Positions 2,614-24,851 of a DNA stretch of 32,764 nt are shown one piece after another. This stretch comes from a virus. Each line of letters starts with the position of its first letter. The stretch's first letter is position 1. A program made the position numbers and the translations under genes. Location of the stretch: positions 1 to 32,764 of IMG/VR virus record IMGVR_UViG_3300018416_000060; one strand, 5' to 3'. Under the pieces are notes generated by a model. The model ran no database searches. It was given only the letters and a program-made list of their open reading frames with translations, and was not told the origin of the DNA.

Positions 2614-3268
2614 ATGCTGATATCCTTAACCTCGAGTAGAGGTTGAAATCTTCCTTAAAATGCTTTCTTATTTTATTTACGGTACCTAAATCAAAATCAA
2701 AATCTTTGTCTCTTCGATATCTTAGTTTAAATCTAGGAACTCCAGTGATCTGTCTAATCCCTTTATCTTCAAACAAATCTCTTAAATGGTAATCTATGTA
2801 TTCATAGAGCCAATATTGCCCCATTACTTTCCCATTGACACGTAATCTATCATATTGTGATATGGTGTCATTTGGGTGATTCAGAGAATACCCATTATTG
2901 GTCCAAGCCTTATATTCAGATAAGGAAGGATCTTCTTGAGGAGTCCTCATATATTTAAGTTGATAATAAAGACTCTTTTGTCTTTCTATGGGATCTCGTA
3001 GGATGCAGAAACAGGTATAATCGTCTACCTGCTCTTCTGTAACCAGATCCTCATTGATTAGATCTTCCAATCCTAACCCATAGAAACCGTAGGGTCTATA
3101 CTTTTCTAGTATTTCTTCAGATACGGTTCCTAAAATATTATCGTCTTCTACTGGGGTATATATTGCTTCGGGGTCATCAATATTATCAATTAAATATTTA
3201 CAGATACTGCTCCCGCCAGCCCTTGGTGTCCTTACGAATATTATTTTATATTTATGTGAAATGTACAT
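2576..3268 (-). CDS. Sulfotransferase family protein
   Basis: 230 aa. PAPS-dependent sulfotransferases move a sulfuryl group to a hydroxyl of a glycan or small molecule. The 5'-phosphosulfate loop is visible as VRTPRAGGSSI near residues 13-23, and the 3'-phosphate site as CILRDPIERQKSLYYQ. An in-frame TTG precedes the chosen ATG, but the ATG has an AAGGTG site upstream and overlaps the previous stop by one base (TGATG), so the ATG is preferred. Together with the adjacent GT25 and GT32 genes it suggests synthesis or decoration of a sulfated glycan. Acceptor unknown. Confidence 0.65.
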   Translation of the reverse strand: MYISHKYKIIFVRTPRAGGSSICKYLIDNIDDPEAIYTPVEDDNILGTVSEEILEKYRPYGFYGLGLEDLINEDLVTEEQVDDYTCFCILRDPIERQKSLYYQLKYMRTPQEDPSLSEYKAWTNNGYSLNHPNDTISQYDRLRVNGKVMGQYWLYEYIDYHLRDLFEDKGIRQITGVPRFKLRYRRDKDFDFDLGTVNKIRKHFKEDFNLYSRLRISAYETDISHYTATQ

Positions 3269-3924
3269 CAAGCACCTTTATCATAGGTTTTAACATTAAC
3301 AAACAGACCGGTCGAACCCCAGAATTGATCAGCGTAAATCTTGCCCGGACCACTATATCTAGGACCAACATACCATTGAGGAACAAAGAAATAAGAAGGC
3401 CATATGGTAAGCATATGCATCCAATTAGGAACTTGATGAGCGAGAAACAGATTTCCGGTTGATCGAAATGGTTCTGGGTTGAGTTGTTCTGGTCTTAATT
3501 CATGCAGAGTATCTATTATATGTTTTAGAAACACATTTCCTGGGTTACAAGCATACATGGGACATACGTAACCTGGTTTGGCCTTTTCATTTTCCCAACA
3601 AGAATACGCATAGTGCTCAGGAGATGTGAAGAGTTCGTCGACCCTCTCTAAACACTGAGAATCGGCCTCCGGCATGAATCCACCTTGCTCGTAAAGCAAC
3701 TCATATCGAATGAGATCTGCTACCCCTGGCCACTTCTGCCATTGATAATATCGTTCGATAAGATGTTGATTGTGCCATTTACGAGACTTTAGCATCTCGT
3801 CTGTGAAGAGAGTATGATTCCAATCTGGATGTTTATCTTTCCAAGTTTGAATCCATTTGAGAGGAGCAGGTTTTGGGCCTATCCATATCTGGGTGATTTT
3901 CTTTTCAATGTTCATTCTCATCAT
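3268..3924 (-). CDS. GT32-like (OCH1/capsular sugar) glycosyltransferase
   Basis: 218 aa. The N-terminal KKITQIWIGPKPAP is the usual IPKIIHQIW-type start of the Gly_transf_sug group. The block GVADLIRYELLYEQGGFMPEADS near 67-89 aligns with the family's DLxRYxxLYxxGGxYxDxD; the DXD metal motif here reads E-A-D, an unusual but conservative change. Several close in-frame ATG codons (3924, 3921, 3915) make the exact start uncertain. It overlaps both neighbours and belongs to the glycan-modification cluster. The role, host-surface or virion decoration, is inferred. Confidence 0.65.
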   Translation of the reverse strand: MMRMNIEKKITQIWIGPKPAPLKWIQTWKDKHPDWNHTLFTDEMLKSRKWHNQHLIERYYQWQKWPGVADLIRYELLYEQGGFMPEADSQCLERVDELFTSPEHYAYSCWENEKAKPGYVCPMYACNPGNVFLKHIIDTLHELRPEQLNPEPFRSTGNLFLAHQVPNWMHMLTIWPSYFFVPQWYVGPRYSGPGKIYADQFWGSTGLFVNVKTYDKGA

Positions 3925-4132: not shown

Positions 4133-5521
4133 TTAGTATAATTCTGACCAGGCTATGCTACAGATCGCGGTCTTGGAAGGAGCCGTAGATGCAGCCACAA
4201 CTGTTACTATATCAGATTCAATAGCTGCAAAGGTATTGGTTACAAATTTTCTTCGCAACTGATAACGTAGCTGATCTCTAAATTGAACAATGTTACTGGC
4301 ACCTGAAAGAGAAGCGCCTGAAAAAATGACATTATCTTTTGTAAATGATACGGCAGTAGCTGCAGTATCGACCTCTACAGCACTATATGGTTCACCTTGG
4401 TCTGTGAAGGTCGCACCAGTGAGAGTCGGGTTTCGAACCAGCATAAAATAAAGGTTCGTGTTATCTACAGAAGATACTTGCATTTCCAAAATCTTCACAG
4501 CAGCTGATAAAGCAATGTCTTTCAAACGAAGAGACACCAAAGGATAGAACGTCTTGGCGTTAATTAGATTATTTGTGGTAGTATCGATTTCTACCAATGG
4601 CGCACTAGTGGTAAAATCTAAACCATTCTCAGCATTATGAACCGTGCCGATATCTTCAACACCACCTTCTGCAATCACAGAGGTTGAAGAAAGATAGAAA
4701 TATGCAGGAGGTCCAGAATAGGTAGGCGATGCAATCAATTCTTGTCTTAAAGGTAAGAAAGGTGTTTTAGTCCATGTACCTACAGTGGTGTTTGCATTAT
4801 TGACTGTATGGATCACGTGGAATTCACCATCGATTACGTAACCAAATTTAACCTGACCTGATCCATACCATTCATATTCAATACCGAGCAATTGTTGAGC
4901 AAGAGGGTTAGCAACGATTTGAGATCTACCGTCACCTTCGAGGCTATCGCCATTCCATTCACCTGCATTTCTTCCTACGCGAACAGTTTCAACACCATTC
5001 TTTTTAACGACGAGGAAATAATCACCGGTGCCATCATCCTCAAAAAAGACACCATTGTCATCATCATACATTCCAATGCGTCGAGTGATACCTTCAGATG
5101 GCAAATCGAATCGACATGCCATTGAGGCAAACTGTTCTTTACCTGGGACGTATGGAATGACATTTGCCGTTTCTCTCTTAACGAAATCATTGGCAGCTTT
5201 GACGACTGCAACGGCAGTGTTTTCGGTGATGATATCAGACCCGGGGCTGAGAGGATCAAATGTCTCAGGATTAGCAGCATCGTTAGAAATATACGCGTTG
5301 GCAGTGCCACCAAGTTCTTGTAACCATTGAGCATCTTCGACCACATGAGAAAATGTATGATGGAATATTGTCTGAGGATTAGATACCTTGAGGCGATTCT
5401 TTGAGGTGAACGAAGGTCGCCAGTCGGACTGGGCTCCAAATTTATCAGCCAAGGTGACCGCCTCAAATAAAGAGGTGCCATTAGCTAAATATGATTGTGA
5501 CTTTTTATTCCATTGAGCCAT
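4133..5521 (-). CDS. Virion structural protein of marine T4-like phages
   Basis: 462 aa. The N-terminus MAQWNKKSQSYLANGTSLFE resembles the W-N-K-x-x-Q-x-(Y/F)-L...LFE opening I associate with structural proteins of marine T4-like phages. The remainder is Thr/Ser/Val-rich and beta-like, without signal peptide or catalytic motif, as expected for a tail, baseplate or fibre-associated protein. It starts one base after the stop of the ligase-like gene upstream. The exact virion location cannot be told from sequence. The structural call rests on resemblance and composition. Confidence 0.55.
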   Translation of the reverse strand: MAQWNKKSQSYLANGTSLFEAVTLADKFGAQSDWRPSFTSKNRLKVSNPQTIFHHTFSHVVEDAQWLQELGGTANAYISNDAANPETFDPLSPGSDIITENTAVAVVKAANDFVKRETANVIPYVPGKEQFASMACRFDLPSEGITRRIGMYDDDNGVFFEDDGTGDYFLVVKKNGVETVRVGRNAGEWNGDSLEGDGRSQIVANPLAQQLLGIEYEWYGSGQVKFGYVIDGEFHVIHTVNNANTTVGTWTKTPFLPLRQELIASPTYSGPPAYFYLSSTSVIAEGGVEDIGTVHNAENGLDFTTSAPLVEIDTTTNNLINAKTFYPLVSLRLKDIALSAAVKILEMQVSSVDNTNLYFMLVRNPTLTGATFTDQGEPYSAVEVDTAATAVSFTKDNVIFSGASLSGASNIVQFRDQLRYQLRRKFVTNTFAAIESDIVTVVAASTAPSKTAICSIAWSELY

Positions 5522-6751
5522 TTATTTTTGCCAACCTTTTATGTAATCAGGTGAAAAATTAGCTCTACTAAAGCCAAGTCTATCTACCAATTTTAGAACA
5601 TTTTGTCCAGAGTGATCAATGGCAACAAACCCTTCTTGTCCAGTCACCTCGAATCCCTTCGAAGTTTTGAGTAAAGTCTTAATACCCTGTACAGTATTGA
5701 GTTTATCGATCACGATATGTTTAGCATCGACTAGCATATTATATAGTTCAAAGACTTTTTCGATGTCTTTATCTTTGTATTTATTAAAATAAGAAAGAAC
5801 AGTGTTCTTTTTATCTCTCTGTGCCTGTTTGCCCTTTGCTGAGGACCGACTGGCAGCCTGTTTTTCGTAGTATTCGTCAATAAATTTTCTCAGGCCGATG
5901 ACGAAGGCCTTAGGCTCTCCAATACGAGACCCTTCTCTTATCTTAGAATTGATGTATGTATTGACCCTCATATTCAATTCGGCATCTTGATACAGGCCAT
6001 CCAGTACACCTTTCTTTGTCGTCTTGAATAGAGATCCTGCCTTAGATAAGAGTTCAGTAAATTCTTTTGTTTCCTGAGCCGTGAATGTGGCTGTACCCGA
6101 TTTGTCTTCGAAGACAGCATCTACATTCCACACACTAGCTACTTTTTTGAGGCCTGGGACAATCTTCTTTCCAAAACTTGCTGACATTGATTCAAGATCT
6201 GATCCTCCGTAAGTTGTGTGCCAGACCACACCGATCTTGGATCTTGATATTTCTTTAGCGAGGCCTGAATCGACCGGTATCGCATAAACAATGGTATTAG
6301 GATGGAAAGTAAGATGCGGTTCGCCATCAATACTTTCTGCCTTGATATCGTCTGACGTATAGAGGAAATCACCTTGCACAACTCCTTTGATCCCCAACTT
6401 GGAGAGCTCTGCGAGTGCGATCTTGAATTTGTCATTCAGTTCACCACTCAAATCATTATCAATGTCTTCATTCGATTTATATAACTTAGGGTTCTTATTG
6501 AAGACGCCCTTTTTGGCCACGAAAAATTTTCCATCAGTCGGATCTATCCCGGCGAAGATGGCAGGAGCACCATCCCACTTTGTAGTGAGAGAAACAGGAG
6601 CACTAGTGTTCCCGGCCAACATATCACGAAGAGCTCGGAGATAAAGGATAACATTTCGAGTGCCCTTAACACCGCCGTCTAATACAGCGTCTTCGAGGTG
6701 AGTCATGTGAAGATTCTTTGACTCTTCCAAATATGTGCCAAATGATTTCAT
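5522..6751 (-). CDS. Ligase-like covalent nucleotidyltransferase with capsid-targeting-like tag
   Basis: 409 aa. Motifs of the DNA/RNA ligase and capping-enzyme superfamily appear in order: motif I TKWDGAP at 57-63 (Lys58 as candidate nucleotidylated Lys), a second conserved block FFVAKKG at 76-82, motif III-like VVQGDFLY at 124-131, IIIa-like IVYAIPV at 154-160, motif IV QEGFVAI at 372-378 and motif V NVLKLVDR at 384-391. An insert of about 190 residues, partly basic helix, separates IIIa from IV. I recall this as a conserved uncharacterised family in marine T4-like phages. Residues 1-10 (MKSFGTYLEE) match the T4 capsid-targeting sequence register MKTYQEFIAE, so it may be packaged and injected. 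An AGGA site precedes the ATG. Enzymatic activity is inferred. Confidence 0.65.
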   Translation of the reverse strand: MKSFGTYLEESKNLHMTHLEDAVLDGGVKGTRNVILYLRALRDMLAGNTSAPVSLTTKWDGAPAIFAGIDPTDGKFFVAKKGVFNKNPKLYKSNEDIDNDLSGELNDKFKIALAELSKLGIKGVVQGDFLYTSDDIKAESIDGEPHLTFHPNTIVYAIPVDSGLAKEISRSKIGVVWHTTYGGSDLESMSASFGKKIVPGLKKVASVWNVDAVFEDKSGTATFTAQETKEFTELLSKAGSLFKTTKKGVLDGLYQDAELNMRVNTYINSKIREGSRIGEPKAFVIGLRKFIDEYYEKQAASRSSAKGKQAQRDKKNTVLSYFNKYKDKDIEKVFELYNMLVDAKHIVIDKLNTVQGIKTLLKTSKGFEVTGQEGFVAIDHSGQNVLKLVDRLGFSRANFSPDYIKGWQK

Positions 6752-7446
6752 ACGTGTCCTAGTAAATATTCGTATGGCTTTTTATGTTCGTCACTCTCAG
6801 ATTTCATATTAAGGAATATTATAGGGTCAATCAACTTAGGATCACACCACCAATCTTCAAATGCCCTAGATCTATCCTCATCCGGTGATATGTTTCCAGC
6901 CATAAGAACATACCCCCTTTCTGATAAAAATTTACGAGAGTGCTTTCTAAAATCTTTATCCTTATAATAATATGAATCGTGTTCATATGTTATCACACGA
7001 AACCTGTAAGAGTCCCATGGTATCCTATGCATTGCCTCCCACGTTACATCCGGTGGATCACAATCCAGCTGGAGATAATCAATAACTGTAGGCATTTGTA
7101 GATGTGGTAAGAGGACAGAATAATCTATCGTTGTAGCATCTAAACAATATGCCGTGTTATTTGGTCTCTGTTGATGATGTTTCTGAATTGAATCAGAATT
7201 ATAATCAATACTGAGACCACGCCATCCATAGGCCAACTCTAATACGGCTGTATTGCTCCTATGAAAAGGAAGATCACAACCGATCTCTAAATATGTGCCC
7301 TCTCGTTTACCATCAGTCATCGAAAGAACATATATGTCTTGTAAACACTCAGAATAATTTCGCTCTAGGGTTTCAAATCCTTGGAAATTGTGTCTTAATT
7401 GTTTACCTCTAATAACCTCAAATAAATCATAACTAAATGGTTTCAT
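6748..7446 (-). CDS. FkbM-like SAM-dependent methyltransferase
   Basis: 232 aa. TYLEIGCDLPFHRSNTAVLE near 51-70 is the FkbM-type glycine motif that binds S-adenosylmethionine, followed by GWRGLSIDYN (74-83) with acidic Asp81, and VIDYLQLDCDPPD, the family's late motif. FkbM enzymes usually O-methylate sugars or small molecules. A GGGAG site precedes the ATG, and its end overlaps the next gene by four bases (ATGA), indicating coupled translation with the ligase-like gene. With the glycosyltransferases and sulfotransferases of this window it suggests glycan modification; the substrate is unknown. Confidence 0.7.
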   Translation of the reverse strand: MKPFSYDLFEVIRGKQLRHNFQGFETLERNYSECLQDIYVLSMTDGKREGTYLEIGCDLPFHRSNTAVLELAYGWRGLSIDYNSDSIQKHHQQRPNNTAYCLDATTIDYSVLLPHLQMPTVIDYLQLDCDPPDVTWEAMHRIPWDSYRFRVITYEHDSYYYKDKDFRKHSRKFLSERGYVLMAGNISPDEDRSRAFEDWWCDPKLIDPIIFLNMKSESDEHKKPYEYLLGHV

Positions 7447-7454
7447 TAAACTCC

Positions 7455-8903
7455 CTACGAGCTCTTGGGCATATCTCTATAGATTGCCTTGAATTCATCA
7501 CTCATAAATGCAGTGAAAGATGGTGCCGATCTAAAGTTGCCTTTATAACGTAAAACAATATTTGCAAGAACCGTACCACCTAACGATAAATCTAATTTCA
7601 ACATTGCAGCCGTTGCTCCTGGCTGGAACGCCTGTACCTCACCGGGGGTGTAATCGATAGAAGCCCCACCCTTCGATGCAAGATTTTCTATCTTCTCCGA
7701 TACTGTGTCGATATTTTTATATTCTGCCTTTTCGACCACGACACCTTTCCTTGCCCCATAATCACCGATACCAGTGACCAATGAGAAATCGAAATCAACA
7801 GATTGAAGTTCTTTTAAATCTGCTTTGAAAATAAGTTGTACTAACTGATTGGCAATAAGTTCTTTATTCTGAGAAATGATTTTGCCCATCTTGCCAAATA
7901 GAGATCGACTCTTTTTCAGTTCAGCATTGATTATTTCGTTGGGTATCTGCTGGATGAATAACTTCCAATTCTTGGTAGAAGGTCTAGTCTTCTTCATCAG
8001 CTTCTCTGTCGCCGGATCTAGTACCCCATCTTTCTTGGCTCTAGCAATGACACGAAGATAGAACATACCAGCGCTCTTATCGAGGGTTTCCATCAGCGAT
8101 TGAAATTCTTTACCTTGGAACAGTGTAGAGAATGATTTATTAATCAGAGTAGGATCTGCCTCAGATAGACGAATCTTCTTTTTGAGAGAGACACCCATAT
8201 ACTTAGAACCCTTCTTGATAATAAAATCAGAAGAGTTGAAATCTTGCATGCCGTATTTGGTGATCTGGAATTTCTTGACATCGTCATCCCATGCCTGGCC
8301 GGTGAGATAGACTTTATCAGCTCCACCCCAACCATTATCGTGGAGTGCCTTTGCAGCAGAAACGGCCTTGGCCATATTCGCGTAGTCCCCACCTAATTTC
8401 TCTACCTGGCCTGATTTGTAGCCACTGATATTGCCGAGATTCTTTTTAACCTCATCAATCAGTACATCCATTTCATCCGACGTGGTGGGTATGGGCAGAG
8501 ATGACTTTAGCATCAAACCTGCAGTCATGAGTTCGTGAGGATCATCTCCAGCAGCAGATCTTTTACCACTTGGACGACAGTTGACGTATACGTATTTCTC
8601 TAGGTCTTTATGCCGGAAAGCAAAATCTTTGGTAATACGGGCTGGTTTAACCGGAGCTGGTTCTAGGTCATCTCGTTCTTCGATAATTGCATTTGCCATT
8701 GAGGCATATTTTGTCCTCATGGCGTCGTCCATCATCATTGAGATGCCTAACTTTTTACCACTATTATAGGCAGGACGATCGTCTAGTGCAATTTCTGTTG
8801 GTATAGAACCAATTGCATTATCAATCTCGGCTACTAGTTCCAATGCCCTTGCATTTTCATCGATAGCCGTTTCTTCTTTTAGATAGGTTTGAAACCGTTT
8901 CAT
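7455..8903 (-). CDS. Large conserved phage protein, PD-(D/E)XK-like, with capsid-targeting-like tag
   Basis: 482 aa from the ATG at 8903, which has a GGAG site; an upstream TTG at 8924 would leave no leader behind the late promoter and is rejected. Residues 1-10 (MKRFQTYLKE) match the T4 capsid-targeting tag (MKTYQEFIAE) with an L-x-E cleavage point at residue 10. A possible PD-(D/E)XK nuclease core is DPHELMTAGLML at 121-132 (Glu124), SSDFIIK at 224-230 (Asp226) and MGVSLKKK at 236-243 (Ser239-x-Lys241). The C-terminal 200 residues carry no motif I recognise. Perfect late promoter TATAAATA sits 22 bases upstream. Function as an injected nuclease is a hypothesis. Confidence 0.6.
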   Translation of the reverse strand: MKRFQTYLKEETAIDENARALELVAEIDNAIGSIPTEIALDDRPAYNSGKKLGISMMMDDAMRTKYASMANAIIEERDDLEPAPVKPARITKDFAFRHKDLEKYVYVNCRPSGKRSAAGDDPHELMTAGLMLKSSLPIPTTSDEMDVLIDEVKKNLGNISGYKSGQVEKLGGDYANMAKAVSAAKALHDNGWGGADKVYLTGQAWDDDVKKFQITKYGMQDFNSSDFIIKKGSKYMGVSLKKKIRLSEADPTLINKSFSTLFQGKEFQSLMETLDKSAGMFYLRVIARAKKDGVLDPATEKLMKKTRPSTKNWKLFIQQIPNEIINAELKKSRSLFGKMGKIISQNKELIANQLVQLIFKADLKELQSVDFDFSLVTGIGDYGARKGVVVEKAEYKNIDTVSEKIENLASKGGASIDYTPGEVQAFQPGATAAMLKLDLSLGGTVLANIVLRYKGNFRSAPSFTAFMSDEFKAIYRDMPKSS

Positions 8904-8924
8904 TATGAGCTCCGTGTTACCCAA

Positions 8925-8932
8925 TATTTATA
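8925..8932 (-). promoter_or_regulatory. T4-type late promoter
   Basis: The minus strand reads TATAAATA, the exact T4 late promoter box. It lies in the short gap after the gp41-like gene, 22 bases upstream of the ATG at 8903, so it separates the early replication genes from a late-expressed downstream gene. Confidence 0.75.
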
Positions 8933-8933
8933 A

Positions 8934-10352
8934 CTATATCAACCCTCCGGCAGAAAACCTCTTCTTTCCTTCTCCTAGCTGCCGTACACCAAAGTCTGTC
9001 TTATCAAATACAGCAACATCATCATCTTGTTTCTTGATATCACCCGAATCTTGATGGATGGTCTGCTGTACACTTTCCTCTAAATCATATATCTTCATCT
9101 TCGCTCTGTCAATACCCACGAGGAATCTTCTATAATAAGAAAGATCACCCCATCGATTCTTGAGCTGTTTGATCATCAGCTGATTGAGGGAATCGAGTTG
9201 CTCAGACGTAATCAGACCAAAGATGGCATCAGCAGTATGGGTGATACCCATCGATTCAGATGTATTGGTCAGATCGACATCAGAGTTGCCATATCCATCT
9301 CGGTTGAACTGGGATGATGTGACAACAGCACAATTATTCTCCATTGCCAGACCACGGACCTCTTCGGCAATAGATTTCACAAGAGTGTAAGAGTTTGCAG
9401 CTGCGGCTCCTTTCACACGAGAAGAAGCACAGATATTCAGGTAATCAACGAACACGACATCTGGAATAAAATTCTTTTTCATTTTAAGTTCGTTCAATAG
9501 ATGTCGAAAGTGTCCCACGTGAGCACTTCCGGTTGGATATTCCTTAATGATCAATTTGCCAGGAGTCTTCGATCTGTATCGAGCAATTCTCTTCTCAAAA
9601 ACATCACGAGGAATCTCTCCGACCTCATCGAGGGTAATGTCCATAATGTTGGCATCGATCCTCCGGGCAACCTCTTCTTCAGCCAATTCCATGGTGATGA
9701 ATAAGACATTCTTGCCATGCATCAACATCGAGGATGCCATGTGGCATTTGACCAGAGATTTACCGCCACCAGTAGTGGCCAGTAGTACAGTCATCGATTT
9801 ACGAGGTAGACCACCCTTGGTGATCTTGTTCATTAATTCAATATCAAACGGAATTCTTTCCTCTTTCTTATGGTAATAATCATAGCGATCATCATTCTGC
9901 ACGAGGAAATCATGGCCGATACTCGAATCAAAAGAGATACCGAGAGAATCAGCCAGAATTTTTGGGATTTCTCCCTTGTCCATATCACCACCCTGTCCTT
10001 CAAGGATCATAATGGATTTACGGACTGAATTAAATAGATCCCTATCTTGGCAAAATTTCTCTGTCTCGTCGATAAGGAACTCTGTGTTTGTATCTTCGTC
10101 TAACGAAAGACCCCGAACGATGTCTTGTACTTCTTTGTACGCGTCTTCGTTCAGGTCTGTTCGGTTATCCAGGCAGAGACCCAAAGCCTCCTTTGACGGA
10201 GGCTCGGAATATTTCTCAACATACTCACAGATAGTGGAATATACCTTCTGGTAATTCCTATCTTCAAAATAATCTGATTTTAGATAAGGGTATACCTTTC
10301 GGTAGTAGTCCTCATTCAGTATCAGATTCGATAAGATCGTCTTCTCTAGCAT
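8934..10352 (-). CDS. 41: Replicative DNA helicase, T4 gp41-like (DnaB family)
   Basis: 472 aa, the usual length of the T4 gp41 family. It unwinds the lagging-strand template as a hexamer and recruits primase. An N-terminal helical domain (1-140) precedes a RecA-like motor with Walker A TTGGGKS at 193-199, the H1a-type segment VLFITMELAEEEVARR at 216-231, Walker B VVFVDYLNI near 303 and the sensor-like SSQFNRDG. Its start lies inside the end of uvsX, so the two are translationally linked. Neighbours UvsX, gp32, gp59 and gp33 confirm the assignment. A sigma70-like promoter inside uvsX (10510-10539) may give extra expression. Confidence 0.93.
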   Translation of the reverse strand: MLEKTILSNLILNEDYYRKVYPYLKSDYFEDRNYQKVYSTICEYVEKYSEPPSKEALGLCLDNRTDLNEDAYKEVQDIVRGLSLDEDTNTEFLIDETEKFCQDRDLFNSVRKSIMILEGQGGDMDKGEIPKILADSLGISFDSSIGHDFLVQNDDRYDYYHKKEERIPFDIELMNKITKGGLPRKSMTVLLATTGGGKSLVKCHMASSMLMHGKNVLFITMELAEEEVARRIDANIMDITLDEVGEIPRDVFEKRIARYRSKTPGKLIIKEYPTGSAHVGHFRHLLNELKMKKNFIPDVVFVDYLNICASSRVKGAAAANSYTLVKSIAEEVRGLAMENNCAVVTSSQFNRDGYGNSDVDLTNTSESMGITHTADAIFGLITSEQLDSLNQLMIKQLKNRWGDLSYYRRFLVGIDRAKMKIYDLEESVQQTIHQDSGDIKKQDDDVAVFDKTDFGVRQLGEGKKRFSAGGLI

Positions 10353-11704: not shown

Positions 11705-12625
11705 TTAGGCCTTAGCCAATTCCTTGAAGATAGAAAGGTCATCATCATCGTCGTCATCGACAACTGGATTAGCCACTTCCTTCATCATAGGTTCTGGTTC
11801 AGATTTCATTGATGAACTCAGATCAAGTACATCTTCCTCTTCTTCCTTAAAGGGGTCTGAAGAAGCTGCTGCATTACCAAGATCAAGAACTCGATACAAT
11901 TTCTGCTTGAGTTCGTCATAGGACTTGAAGTTTGAAGGGTCGAGCAACTCTTGGAGAGAGTGTTGCTTTTCCCAAATTGCTTCAAGATCTTCATCATCAT
12001 CTGACAAGGCCGAAGGAGCATCAAACTCTGACTTGTCATAATTAGGGTATCCTTCGAATTGACGGATCTTCAATCGGAAGTTTGCACCTTCCCAGAAGTC
12101 GAAAGGATTGACTGGAGCCTCATCTTCAAAAGATGGGTTCATCAGATCATTCAACTTGTCGAAGATCTTCTTGCCGAATTGATAAAGGAATACCTTTCCT
12201 TCGTTCTCAGGATTTGCAGAATCCTTCACGACATAAACATTGGCGATATACTTGAGTCGACGCTTCTGTTTACGAGCCAGTTCCTTATCCGATTCCAGTC
12301 CAGAGTTCCACAACTTAGAGTTGTATTCTGATACCGGATCATCTTGGTTGAGAGTCGTGAGTGAATTCTCGATGTACCAAAGACCAGTAGGGCCTTGAAA
12401 GCCGTGGTCCCAAATACGCACGAATGGCATTTCTTCACCCTTGGGAGCAGGCAAGAATCGCAGAATGGCGAAACCATTCCCAGCCTTGTCTCGTTGGGGT
12501 TTCCAGAATTTACCTTCGTTTGGATCTGAATAGGTCTTTGAGGACAGCTTGTCTAGCTCTGCATTGAGCTTGTCAAGTGATTTGGTACGATTCTTCTTGA
12601 GTGCTGAAAAGTCGTTTAGTGCCAT
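11705..12625 (-). CDS. 32: Single-stranded DNA-binding protein, T4 gp32-like, lacking the zinc cysteines
   Basis: 306 aa (T4: 301). It coats ssDNA at forks and binds gp59 and UvsX. The N-terminal cooperativity domain is basic (SALKKNRTKSLDKL); the core has WDHGFQGPTGLWYIENS at 72-88 and ANVYVVKDSANPENEGKVFLYQFGKKI, near identical in pattern to T4. The C-terminal tail is highly acidic, with seven Asp in a row near the end before LSIFKELAKA. T4 gp32 binds Zn through His64, Cys77, Cys87 and Cys90; here the matching His74 remains but the segment ENSLTTLNQDDPVSEY has no Cys, and the protein has none at all. It must fold without that zinc site. Confidence 0.93.
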   Translation of the reverse strand: MALNDFSALKKNRTKSLDKLNAELDKLSSKTYSDPNEGKFWKPQRDKAGNGFAILRFLPAPKGEEMPFVRIWDHGFQGPTGLWYIENSLTTLNQDDPVSEYNSKLWNSGLESDKELARKQKRRLKYIANVYVVKDSANPENEGKVFLYQFGKKIFDKLNDLMNPSFEDEAPVNPFDFWEGANFRLKIRQFEGYPNYDKSEFDAPSALSDDDEDLEAIWEKQHSLQELLDPSNFKSYDELKQKLYRVLDLGNAAASSDPFKEEEEDVLDLSSSMKSEPEPMMKEVANPVVDDDDDDDLSIFKELAKA

Positions 12626-12676
12626 AGTTGTTTCTCCTTTATATAGCGATGTATGTTTTTAATATTGCGTTGTATG

Positions 12677-13282
12677 TCATAACAAAAAGTGATTCTTGAC
12701 ATAGTCTGAGAATCGCTTGGGTTCGAAATCTAAGAAGGGTTTATACTTTTTAGATTTGCGTATTATATCACATGCTACGAACTTGTCAAGAACTTTTTCG
12801 TCCCAATAGGGAAAAATCTTAGCCAGATGCGATAGGATGGTGAACGTCTCCAACGATATCTGCTTCTGCAAGAGCAGTGTCATAATATAAGGATGTTGTC
12901 CTTCATGTGATATAAAGTTTTCCTTGTAGTCATCTTTCAACGACTTCAAGTCGGATTTAAAAAGATACCCGAGTGACTCAATTTTCTTTCGCCATTCGTT
13001 ATAGATTTGTGCCCCTTGGGGCTCTACGATATCTCTAATCCATGTATCTGGTTTGACCAAAAGATTGGCCAGTAACACATTTTCCCAATCTTCTTGTCTC
13101 GTCAACTTCCGAAAGTAGAATGTGTCATTGCGTGTTCGAAACGTCTCATAAGACGCCTTGACCTTGCCATTATATTTATGATAGTCGTACTGATCTGTCG
13201 TAAAATGTTTCTTCAGGGCAAGGTATTTTATATACGCTGAGTACGCTTCCTCATTTGCATAGGTCTGTGAGATCTGCCTCAT
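12677..13282 (-). CDS. 59: Helicase loader, T4 gp59-like
   Basis: 201 aa (T4: 217). gp59 loads the gp41 helicase on gp32-coated forks. The all-helical sequence shares the T4 pattern: HKYNGKVKASYETFRTRNDTFYF-type region, then LLANLLVKPDTWIRDI (T4 LIFISNLVANQDAWIGDI), then LLLQKQISLETFTILSHL (T4 LLQSNIISFETFILLDSF). The start overlaps the gp33-like gene by 32 bases. It sits just upstream of gene 32, as in T4. An intragenic promoter for gene 32 lies in its 3' end. Confidence 0.88.
   Translation of the reverse strand: MRQISQTYANEEAYSAYIKYLALKKHFTTDQYDYHKYNGKVKASYETFRTRNDTFYFRKLTRQEDWENVLLANLLVKPDTWIRDIVEPQGAQIYNEWRKKIESLGYLFKSDLKSLKDDYKENFISHEGQHPYIMTLLLQKQISLETFTILSHLAKIFPYWDEKVLDKFVACDIIRKSKKYKPFLDFEPKRFSDYVKNHFLL
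12762..12789 (-). promoter_or_regulatory. Intragenic sigma70-type promoter before gene 32
   Basis: Minus strand TTGACA (12789-12784), 16-base spacer, TATAAT (12767-12762), inside the 3' end of the gp59-like gene and about 140 bases before the gene 32 ATG. With the terminator at 11674-11698 it would define a one-gene gp32 transcript. Confidence 0.6.
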
Positions 13283-15881: not shown

Positions 15882-16568
15882 TCACACTTCTTCGAAGAGC
15901 ACATCATTGATATACTGATCTTTATCGTGCAGCTGTATTCCCATCGACGTAATAGATCGGTGAAGCTGCACATTCTTCTTCTGATTCTGACAGTATTTGT
16001 TTTGAGCAGAGAGATAATCTTGTCCAGTCTTCCATGACTTAGAGTCTAACCCTTTCATGTAGAATTCAACAGCATGCATTCCGGTCTCACAAAACTGTTC
16101 AAGTTCAACCAGACTATCAATACCACCTGCAGCTACAATATGAGGCGAAAATATCTCAAGTGCCCACTCTGGTAGCTCTCTGGCCTTCTTCCAACTTAAA
16201 TTGGAAGTCAGTCCATCAAAATAAGAAATGTATGGATGCTGCTCAGCAGAAACCGGCGAGTAGTCCATAAACGACCCGCTGATTTTATTTGGCCCTGAGA
16301 CCACATCGAAACCTAATATTGGTAGATTGATCCATGGCTGAGGAAATACATTGATATGTAACAGCCACAGTTTTTTGTTGAATTCTGTTCCCGGCTCAAT
16401 TATTTTTAAGTGGGCTTTTCGGATTGTATCCGACTTCCAAAATTTATCTGTCCAACCTTCAAATTTCTGTACATGCTTTGGATTGTTATAAGGGGCAAGA
16501 TGTTGATCGAAGATATCCTCGATATCGCTTGCCAATAGTCGCAATCTTTGCCAAATCACCGATTCCAT
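15882..16568 (-). CDS. pcyX/pebS-like: Ferredoxin-dependent bilin reductase (PcyX/PebS type)
   Basis: 228 aa, the normal length of phage bilin reductases. It reduces biliverdin IX-alpha, the heme oxygenase product, to an open-chain bilin such as phycoerythrobilin using ferredoxin. The core block KKLWLLHINVFPQPW (65-79), PILGFDVVSG (83-92) and ISGSFMDYSPVS (96-107) is diagnostic; Asp102 matches the catalytic Asp105 of PcyA and His71 its His88 position. The C-terminal QNKYCQNQKKN and the terminal YINDVLFEEV are also typical. Heme oxygenase lies 175 bases upstream in the same operon. PcyX was described from oceanic phages thought to infect alphaproteobacteria; PebS from cyanophage. Sequence alone does not decide between them. 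Confidence 0.88.
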   Translation of the reverse strand: MESVIWQRLRLLASDIEDIFDQHLAPYNNPKHVQKFEGWTDKFWKSDTIRKAHLKIIEPGTEFNKKLWLLHINVFPQPWINLPILGFDVVSGPNKISGSFMDYSPVSAEQHPYISYFDGLTSNLSWKKARELPEWALEIFSPHIVAAGGIDSLVELEQFCETGMHAVEFYMKGLDSKSWKTGQDYLSAQNKYCQNQKKNVQLHRSITSMGIQLHDKDQYINDVLFEEV

Positions 16569-23214: not shown

Positions 23215-24270
23215 TTAGGCCCTACGAGCAAGTGCATAGCATCGATACTGGAATGATGCTACCTTAGTGTCTGCATACCCAGGAGCTCGAATCCAAATAT
23301 CTTTTGTTTTTGTGGTGGTTTGTGAATCGGGAACACCAAACGTATCTGAAACTGCTTGAGCAGTCACGGCGTCCTGTATTCCATCGCTGACATTAAGAGT
23401 ATTAGTCCAGTTGATACCATCAAATGACATTGCTGATGGGAAAACAGCAGTACCTTGGTATGCTGTGACAATCGATGATGAATTTCTTGCTGTTGTAGCA
23501 CCACCTACGGTATAAGATTCCCAATTACCAAATGACTGTGGATTCTGAATGGTGACTGCATAGAAACCGTTGAGTTCTCTGAATACATTCATCTGTAATT
23601 GCGCAAAGGCGTAGACCTCGACCTCGTCCTCAATCTGTATATCTGATCGATACGCGGCCAGACCATTGTCGGCAATGCGTAGGAATGTGGAACCAGCAGG
23701 TATTGCTGGTGGATCTAAACTCGTGTCGTTGATTGTAACTGTTTCATCACCTGATCCTGTAGAGGTACCGGCACTATCTGTTGCTGCTACAGTAATGATA
23801 ACAGTTTCCGCGGTTTCGGTGGTTAAATCTGCCTTGGCTCGAATCCAAAGATTATAATTATTGCCATTGACAGTAAGTGTGATGGTCGCAGCGCCTGGAT
23901 CACTAAACCCAGAGCTTGCGCTGGTGGTCGAAATCTCAAAATCTGCCAATTCTGCTGTACCACTAAATGTGACATTAAGAGTGGTTCCAGCGATAATGTT
24001 GGTCCCAGTCTGCTGAAATAATACTGCAGTTGCATTATCTTCTGGAATGGATTGGACACTTATTGATGTTCCACCGTATGCTGGTGCAGGTGGCCCAGCA
24101 GATTGCCCATAGAAATCAGACATAGATATCTCGCCTGAACCTGGCAATGTTCCTAAGCCATAATACTCTGATAGGGAATGAGGTACGGATCCACCAAATT
24201 CACCCACCACACTTCTGTCTGTTCCTGCTGTTGTGCCTATTGAAATGACACCTGATGCTACTATCGCCAT
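23215..24270 (-). CDS. Adhesin-like tail protein with Calx-beta-type repeat
   Basis: 351 aa from the ATG at 24270 (GAGGG site); the longer GTG frame start is less likely. The N-terminal segment PHSLSEYYGLGTLPGSGEIS and MSDFYG resembles short tail-tip motifs repeated in marine phage structural proteins. Residues about 75-190 look like one Calx-beta-type domain (SIPEDNATAVLFQQTGTNII, then TETAETVIITVAATDSAG), common in secreted adhesins. The remaining half is beta-rich. It overlaps the oxygenase gene by 10 bases and is in the late fibre module, so it is a likely receptor-binding or baseplate protein. Confidence 0.6.
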   Translation of the reverse strand: MAIVASGVISIGTTAGTDRSVVGEFGGSVPHSLSEYYGLGTLPGSGEISMSDFYGQSAGPPAPAYGGTSISVQSIPEDNATAVLFQQTGTNIIAGTTLNVTFSGTAELADFEISTTSASSGFSDPGAATITLTVNGNNYNLWIRAKADLTTETAETVIITVAATDSAGTSTGSGDETVTINDTSLDPPAIPAGSTFLRIADNGLAAYRSDIQIEDEVEVYAFAQLQMNVFRELNGFYAVTIQNPQSFGNWESYTVGGATTARNSSSIVTAYQGTAVFPSAMSFDGINWTNTLNVSDGIQDAVTAQAVSDTFGVPDSQTTTKTKDIWIRAPGYADTKVASFQYRCYALARRA

Positions 24271-24851
24271 GCTGGACCCTCTACCCACGCTACTAGTGAT
24301 CGTCGTAAACCTTTTGTCACAGGGGTTATTCTATGAGACCATGGAGCAGGAAATAGAATTACAGTTCCTTTTGCTCTAAAATCGTGCCCTTCTTTGATGG
24401 TATTATCCTTGAATTCAAGATCCCCACCCTCGTAATCAGAACCATCTGATAACTGTAAAATCATTGTTATCTTACGATGGATGTGAGATTCTGAACCCTT
24501 TCCCCAAAAGTTTGTATCGACGTGCCAGTCATAGAACTGATCTTCTCCATCGGCCAAGCCACCTGTATATTTTAACAGATCCATCTGCACTATATCGTAG
24601 ATGTCATACCCAAAATATTGGGCATTCACTTGACTGGCCACATACATAAGGTCACGACACAAATCCGCATTTCGAAGATTGCCTATGTGAGCAAGATCTA
24701 CGTTTCTAACCGATGTATCGGTCTGTCCTTCGTTATCTGGCCCACGAATGGTTCCTTTCTCCCAGGCATCACTATCGTCTGGTACCTTTTCAATGATTCT
24801 ATCTACATAAGAAGAATCGAAAAAACTATTGAGTAAATAATAACCCTTCAT
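24261..24851 (-). CDS. 2-oxoglutarate/Fe(II)-dependent oxygenase
   Basis: 196 aa. The iron ligands form a complete H-x-D...H set: DWHVD (His110, Asp112) and SHRITPV (His173), with Arg183 or Arg184 (GLRRSLVAW) for 2-oxoglutarate. The YEGGDLEF and GTVILFPA segments are those of the prolyl-hydroxylase-like 2OG-FeII_Oxy group. Such oxygenases accompany tail fibre genes in many T4-like cyanophages, and may hydroxylate fibre residues, though this is not shown. First gene of the late fibre operon, 14 bases after the late promoter. Confidence 0.87.
   Translation of the reverse strand: MKGYYLLNSFFDSSYVDRIIEKVPDDSDAWEKGTIRGPDNEGQTDTSVRNVDLAHIGNLRNADLCRDLMYVASQVNAQYFGYDIYDIVQMDLLKYTGGLADGEDQFYDWHVDTNFWGKGSESHIHRKITMILQLSDGSDYEGGDLEFKDNTIKEGHDFRAKGTVILFPAPWSHRITPVTKGLRRSLVAWVEGPAWR

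Follow-up and report, generated by a model that had tools for sequence, protein, structure and literature searches.

A conserved, predicted late cargo locus of T4-like phages encodes enzyme-like proteins with capsid-targeting-like N-terminal tags

Analysis of a viral DNA stretch of 32,764 nucleotides (IMG/VR record IMGVR_UViG_3300018416_000060, positions 1 to 32,764; hereinafter the window) indicates that it contains a conserved T4-like phage locus for late-expressed cargo, lying between the gene for the gp41-type helicase and a head-protein gene. This reading follows from the conservation of an N-terminal tag, the presence of that tag on otherwise unrelated proteins, and a conserved late promoter box. 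We consider it probable that the two tagged proteins of the locus would be made late, packed via the prohead core, cut, and injected into the host. By its gene content, which includes a gp41-type helicase, UvsX, a single-strand binding protein, a helicase loader and PhoH, the window represents part of a T4-like phage genome.

The locus is encoded on the minus strand in the order gp41, the TATAAATA box, a phrog_3060 gene, an FkbM-like gene, a DUF6267 gene and a virion structural protein gene. Its upstream border is formed by a gp41-type DnaB-like replicative helicase (8934..10352; Pfam and PHROG family matches), which is followed by the late promoter box (8925..8932), a ribosome-binding site GGAG between the box and the ATG (8910..8913), and the gene for the phrog_3060 protein (7455..8903, 482 aa; phrog_3060 E=1e-35, and homologues). 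The latter is read from an ATG at 8903, an alternative TTG at 8924 also being allowed by the ORF lister. The ligase-like DUF6267 protein (PF19782/phrog_455, also T4-GC71; 5522..6751, 409 aa; Pfam E=3e-107) is followed directly downstream by the virion structural protein gene (4133..5521; phrog_1645, head and packaging, E=9e-94). The gene translations bear out the gene coordinates and N-termini given in an initial annotation of this DNA, namely MKRFQTYLKE in the phrog_3060 protein (8874..8903; next residues ETAIDE) and MKSFGTYLEE in DUF6267 (6722..6751; next residues SKNLHM). A third gene, absent from that annotation, lies between the tagged pair (6748..7446, 232 aa); it is FkbM-methyltransferase-like by a weak Pfam match (E=0.037), untagged (its start scores about -2 with the tag profile described below), and has homologues at the corresponding position of 4 loci.

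The initial annotation had made its reading of these N-termini depend on the conservation of the first ten residues in homologues. The tag is indeed kept across roughly 80 IMG/VR homologues of DUF6267, which with few exceptions start with M-x-x-[F/L/Y]-x-x-[Y/F]-[L/I]-x-E directly preceding the conserved body KN-xHM-xH, with the conservation concentrated at positions 4, 7, 8 and 10. The two window proteins share the register that had been claimed for them: both have F4 and Y7, in columns that are conserved across 53 homologue tags (column 4, F/L/Y; column 7, Y/F), and both have L8-x-E10, column 8 being L/I and E10 occurring in nearly all homologues (it was imposed in the choice of the ungapped training tags). 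In the structural model of DUF6267, residues 1-13 have a pLDDT under 50 and the fold begins after them. Homologues of the phrog_3060 protein keep the pattern in part, some of their tags being degenerate.

A profile was trained on the N-termini of 53 DUF6267 proteins from other viral contigs, using ungapped tags only and excluding the window's own. It assigns 15.7 to the DUF6267 start, a value not independent of the training family, and 14.5 to the phrog_3060 start, which, like the T4 and cyanophage tests below, is independent of it. These are the only window starts above chance, the next best in the whole window scoring 2.7; the null, drawn from 834 internal Met decamers of the cyanophage S-CREM2, has a maximum of 1.9. 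Across 89 related viral loci, the coding strand holds 185 tagged ORFs, and not one of the 1,923 ORFs of the opposite strand is tagged; the tagged proteins can be grouped into 28 clusters devoid of detectable mutual similarity outside the tag.

Applied to the complete T4 genome, which lay outside the training set, the profile retrieves IPIII and IPII (both 11.4) and IPI (5.4), all internal proteins; further scorers are gp61.1 (18.7) and two chance-like starts without a named gene. The T4 tag MKTYQEFIAE, cited by the initial annotation for T4 internal proteins in general, is exact for IPII and IPIII, but IPI has a longer variant. The conserved columns 4, 7, 8 and 10 are the very positions mapped in T4 IPIII, where residues 4 and 7 direct targeting and residues 8 and 10 processing (PMC9026906). 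A gp21-family protease is encoded in 13 of 16 relatives' records, the other three being partial contigs that do not reach the capsid genes; the window is likewise a fragment without capsid genes, and its own gp21-type protease would lie outside it.

Published virion proteomes of cyanophages agree with a link between tag and packaging. Among 219 proteins of S-CREM2, whose virion proteins have been listed from mass spectrometry (PMC10665884), the four with the highest tag scores, namely the cytidylyltransferase gp154, the kinase gp14, the SAM hydrolase gp6 and gp13, are all virion proteins (4/4), as are five of the six scoring above zero (Fisher p=0.003). Tag scores overall do not differ between listed virion and non-virion proteins of this phage (Mann-Whitney p=0.21), as is to be expected where untagged structural proteins make up most of the virion proteins, and the enrichment is seen only among high scores. 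In two further phages, the tagged cytidylyltransferase of S-SZBM1 (PMC9146016) and the sole tagged protein in 45 kb of S-SCSM1 (PMC9602691), an NMNAT-like enzyme, are virion proteins; a cytidylyltransferase is also reported from virions of S-SM1 (PMC3037559). One tagged protein of S-CREM2 and two small ones of S-SZBM1 went undetected in these published proteomes. When the single-phage counts are pooled by hand over the three cyanophages, 7 of 10 tagged proteins are virion proteins versus 84 of 489 untagged ones (p=4e-4).

The DUF6267 copies of S-CREM2 (gp87) and S-SZBM1 (141) lack the tag, whether taken as annotated or as located by family search, and do not appear in the virion lists as printed; that of S-SCSM1 (257) is, judged from its annotation, untagged, and it is unmarked as a virion protein in its record. 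A misplaced start was considered for such copies and rejected: the conserved body begins right at the annotated start in S-SZBM1, P-HM2 and S-CRM01, and the tag is therefore taken as absent there. Since the untagged DUF6267 copies were not detected in virions, the data fit a situation in which the tag, and not the body, decides packaging. The published proteomes cover other tagged proteins, and none was found for a phage with a tagged DUF6267, of which Melnitz (on Methylophilales H5P1) and DLP6 are cultured examples. In its recovery of the T4 internal proteins, its conserved positions and its agreement with the virion proteomes of relatives, the tag behaves as would be predicted of a T4-type capsid-targeting sequence, which is what the initial annotation had proposed. 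We infer that these two window proteins are likely packaged, and regard the identity of their tags together with this packaging as highly probable.

The window's TATAAATA box (8932-8925, minus strand) ends 21 nt before the phrog_3060 ATG; the initial annotation had correctly noted the exact box upstream of this gene but placed it 22 bases away. The exact motif by itself was rejected as evidence, as base composition predicts 1.9 copies per strand and three are seen on this strand of the window. The position of the box is a different matter: a [T/C]ATAAATA box separates the two genes in 70 of the 72 loci that hold both gp41 and DUF6267, with 83 such sites on the coding strand versus 14 on the other, and a late box occurs within 60 nt of the start in all 14 phrog_3060 homologues with a readable start. 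Thus, the late expression proposed from the exact motif, which is not significant by itself here, is supported for the tagged genes, at the level of sequence, by the conserved placement of the box in relatives.

We found no paper on DUF6267 in the literature searched. By inspection, its sequence displays ligase motifs, namely K58-W-D60-G61 (K-x-D-G, motif I), E373-G374 (motif IV) and K387 (the motif V lysine), which do not vary across 36 diverse members of the family. With Foldseek alone, its structural model (pLDDT 86) had no significant match; in a structural second look, the best 50 matches are all nucleic-acid ligases, with RNA ligases first. The Naegleria RNA ligase matches moderately (Z 8.9 over 180 residues, rmsd 3.5), followed by the trypanosome editing ligase (Z 8.0), T4 Rnl2 (7.4) and DNA ligases (about 6.4). 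A ligase fold is therefore likely rather than proven, given the non-significant Foldseek result. Motifs and predicted fold together point to membership in the nucleic-acid ligase superfamily with closest resemblance to RNA ligases, a refinement of the plain 'ligase' of the initial annotation.

The PD-(D/E)XK nuclease proposed there for the phrog_3060 protein did not emerge from fold or family searches. Its homologues share a conserved SDFIIKKG..GVSLKKK hairpin, which is PD-(D/E)XK-like by eye, with S in place of E. The structural model is of low confidence (pTM 0.43), and its best partial matches are to pol-beta-type nucleotidyltransferases (residues 11-114); Foldseek alone returned nothing significant for it, Pfam searches with all phrog_3060 members gave weak unrelated matches only, and profile searches against solved structures yielded nothing useful for either this protein or DUF6267.

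Among the 72 loci, the gene behind the late box is usually tagged and belongs to many families, of which phrog_3060 is one. Directly before DUF6267 lie P-loop kinases (14 loci), phrog_26930 proteins (7), HAD proteins (4), FkbM-like proteins (4), PAP2 proteins (2) and others, and in cyanophages the neighbor of DUF6267 is a cytidylyltransferase. The tagged kinase and HAD proteins hit PHROG families annotated as polynucleotide kinase (phrog_505, E=1e-10; phrog_415, E=3e-9), labels resting on profile matches and inspection. The middle gene of the window itself is neither a kinase nor a phosphatase. The frequent placement of tagged polynucleotide-kinase-like and HAD-phosphatase-like genes directly before DUF6267 hints at an end-repair kit.

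In the mechanism we propose, late transcription from TATAAATA would yield the tagged cargo proteins. By extrapolation from T4, residues 4 and 7 of the tag would bind the prohead core, a gp21-type protease would cut after L8-x-E10, and the mature proteins, lodged among the packaged DNA, would reach the cell together with it. Given packaging, injection is very likely. We tentatively suggest that the cargo processes nucleic-acid ends, DUF6267 being the RNA-ligase-like sealer, and mends DNA or tRNA cut by host defenses; the neighbors and the fold are the basis of this repair function. More speculatively, and with less expectation of being right in full, water and soil T4-like phages might carry a preformed, head-packed nucleic-acid repair kit (the RNA-ligase-like DUF6267 plus kinase, phosphatase or nuclease partners) that is encoded in an exchangeable late operon of tagged genes and, once injected, repairs tRNA or genome ends cut by host defenses from the very start of infection.

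The packaged proteins might instead be binders or decoys that inhibit host defense enzymes rather than working enzymes themselves, as are T4 IPI, IPII and IPIII: the type IV restriction enzymes inhibited by T4 internal proteins 1 to 3 differ, and these proteins have only their leader in common (PMC12373910), and the cargo described here is similarly variable. We hold this to be unlikely, as the K-x-D-G, E-G and late K residues are invariant across the DUF6267 family, which argues for kept catalysis in the predicted ligase, and as other tagged cargo includes known enzyme families. Still less probable is that the tag is a true prohead-core address whose cargo is destined not for the host cell but for a task within the head or in its assembly, such as acting on DNA ends or the core. 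The locus does adjoin head-protein genes, and T4 IPIII mutants show head-assembly defects (PMC9026906); however, T4 internal proteins bearing this tag are injected (PMC9026906, PMC12373910), the cargo is highly variable among related phages, unlike assembly factors, and for the tagged SAM hydrolase of S-CREM2 virions only a role in the host cell is plausible. An origin of the N-terminal similarity in chance, or in an ordinary start common to related proteins and unrelated to the capsid, is strongly disfavored to the point of being hardly credible: ten residues are few and the residues are common, but the strand control (185 versus 0), the unrelated bodies, the recovery of the T4 internal proteins and the agreement with virion proteomes all speak against it.

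With packaging and injection of the tagged proteins as the preferred reading, our results suggest that related viruses are equipped with an exchangeable set of enzymes that handle nucleic acids, and that they probably inject it. They extend the T4 capsid-targeting code to a widespread phage group and make the tag a predictor of which phage genes of no assigned role are packed and probably injected. The DUF6267 family thereby gains a testable role, the presence of cytidylyltransferase-like, kinase-like and SAM-cleaving enzymes in cyanophage virions is offered a reason, and the locus points to a hotspot of probable anti-defense enzymes.

Close counterparts are the virion-associated enzymes of cyanophages (cytidylyltransferase/NMNAT-like, APH-like kinase and SAM hydrolase), which bear the same tag, as shown here, and whose genes in several of these phages lie in the same genome region behind gp41. 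The available text of the cyanophage papers (PMC10665884, PMC9146016, PMC9602691, PMC3037559) reports their detection in virions and names no targeting sequence. In those phages, DUF6267 is untagged and not among the proteins in the printed lists, whereas it is tagged here.

A second parallel is with the end-repair enzymes of T4, in which polynucleotide kinase/phosphatase and RNA ligase heal and seal ends; they are made after infection and are untagged. Kinase-like, HAD phosphatase-like and RNA-ligase-like proteins similarly stand side by side in the relatives, but there their genes lie behind a late box and they bear the head-targeting tag. DUF6267 itself forms a separate family with a helical insert and is a predicted ligase by sequence and model.

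A close precedent in principle is provided by IPI, IPII and IPIII of T-even phages and their capsid-targeting sequence (PMC9026906, PMC3012670, PMC12373910), which share with the present proteins an N-terminal tag of ten residues, of which 4, 7, 8 and 10 are key, mature proteins unrelated to one another, variable loci, and a gp21-family prohead protease (here found in relatives). That variable tagged proteins are packed and injected is thus already known from T-even phages. What is new is the locus, between gp41 and DUF6267; the cargo, which is larger and enzyme-like with a near-constant ligase-like member; and the breadth across phages, the hosts of the locus being marine, freshwater and soil T4-like phages as opposed to T-even ones.

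Among the proteins bearing a T4-type capsid-targeting-like sequence of about 10 residues at the N-terminus (the tag), gp6 of cyanophage S-CREM2 (L102:3837-5081, minus strand), a member of the SAM lyase family (E=2e-19), is named in the published virion list of that phage (PMC10665884); its presence there fits, as expected, an injected anti-restriction enzyme. Another virion protein of S-CREM2, gp12 (L102:7704-10313, minus strand), carries an existing annotation as Cas9, a label that looks doubtful because a Pfam search with this protein gave no match. Very strong tags mark two small proteins of cyanophage S-SZBM1 (genes 191 and 192; L109:25312-26126, minus strand; tag scores 24.8 and 27.1), which are encoded amid structural genes and went undetected in the published S-SZBM1 virion proteome (PMC9146016).

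Two large proteins from other viral loci, of 516 aa (L117:1556-3106, minus strand; MKTFSKLLSEVAQP) and 709 aa (L135:12513-14642, plus strand; MKTFSRILSEVAQP), combine a tag-like start with a T4-type late promoter sequence and are encoded next to the gp21-type protease; their PHROG matches are to unknown families only. In the viral locus L050, a tagged protein contains an HD_4 domain (12168-12725; E=1e-16), and a similar start is present in a second locus, L054. As HD_4 occurs in SpoT-type alarmone hydrolases, a packed alarmone-degrading enzyme is conceivable.

The window itself also encodes, on the minus strand, a DXD sugar-binding-type glycosyltransferase (3268-3924; PF04488, E=4e-7) directly downstream of structural protein genes, and auxiliary-type genes with a ferredoxin-oxidoreductase-family match (15882-16568; phrog_7278) and for a 2OG-Fe(II) oxygenase (24261-24851; phrog_61).

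On the phage T4 genome (AF158101), the profile scored the 54-aa hypothetical protein gp61.1 (L167:18966-19130, minus strand; MKTFKEFIKEDMVAG) at 18.7. Since this exceeds the scores of the known internal proteins (IPIII and IPII, 11.4; IPI, 5.4), gp61.1 may be a hitherto unrecognised capsid-targeted protein of T4.
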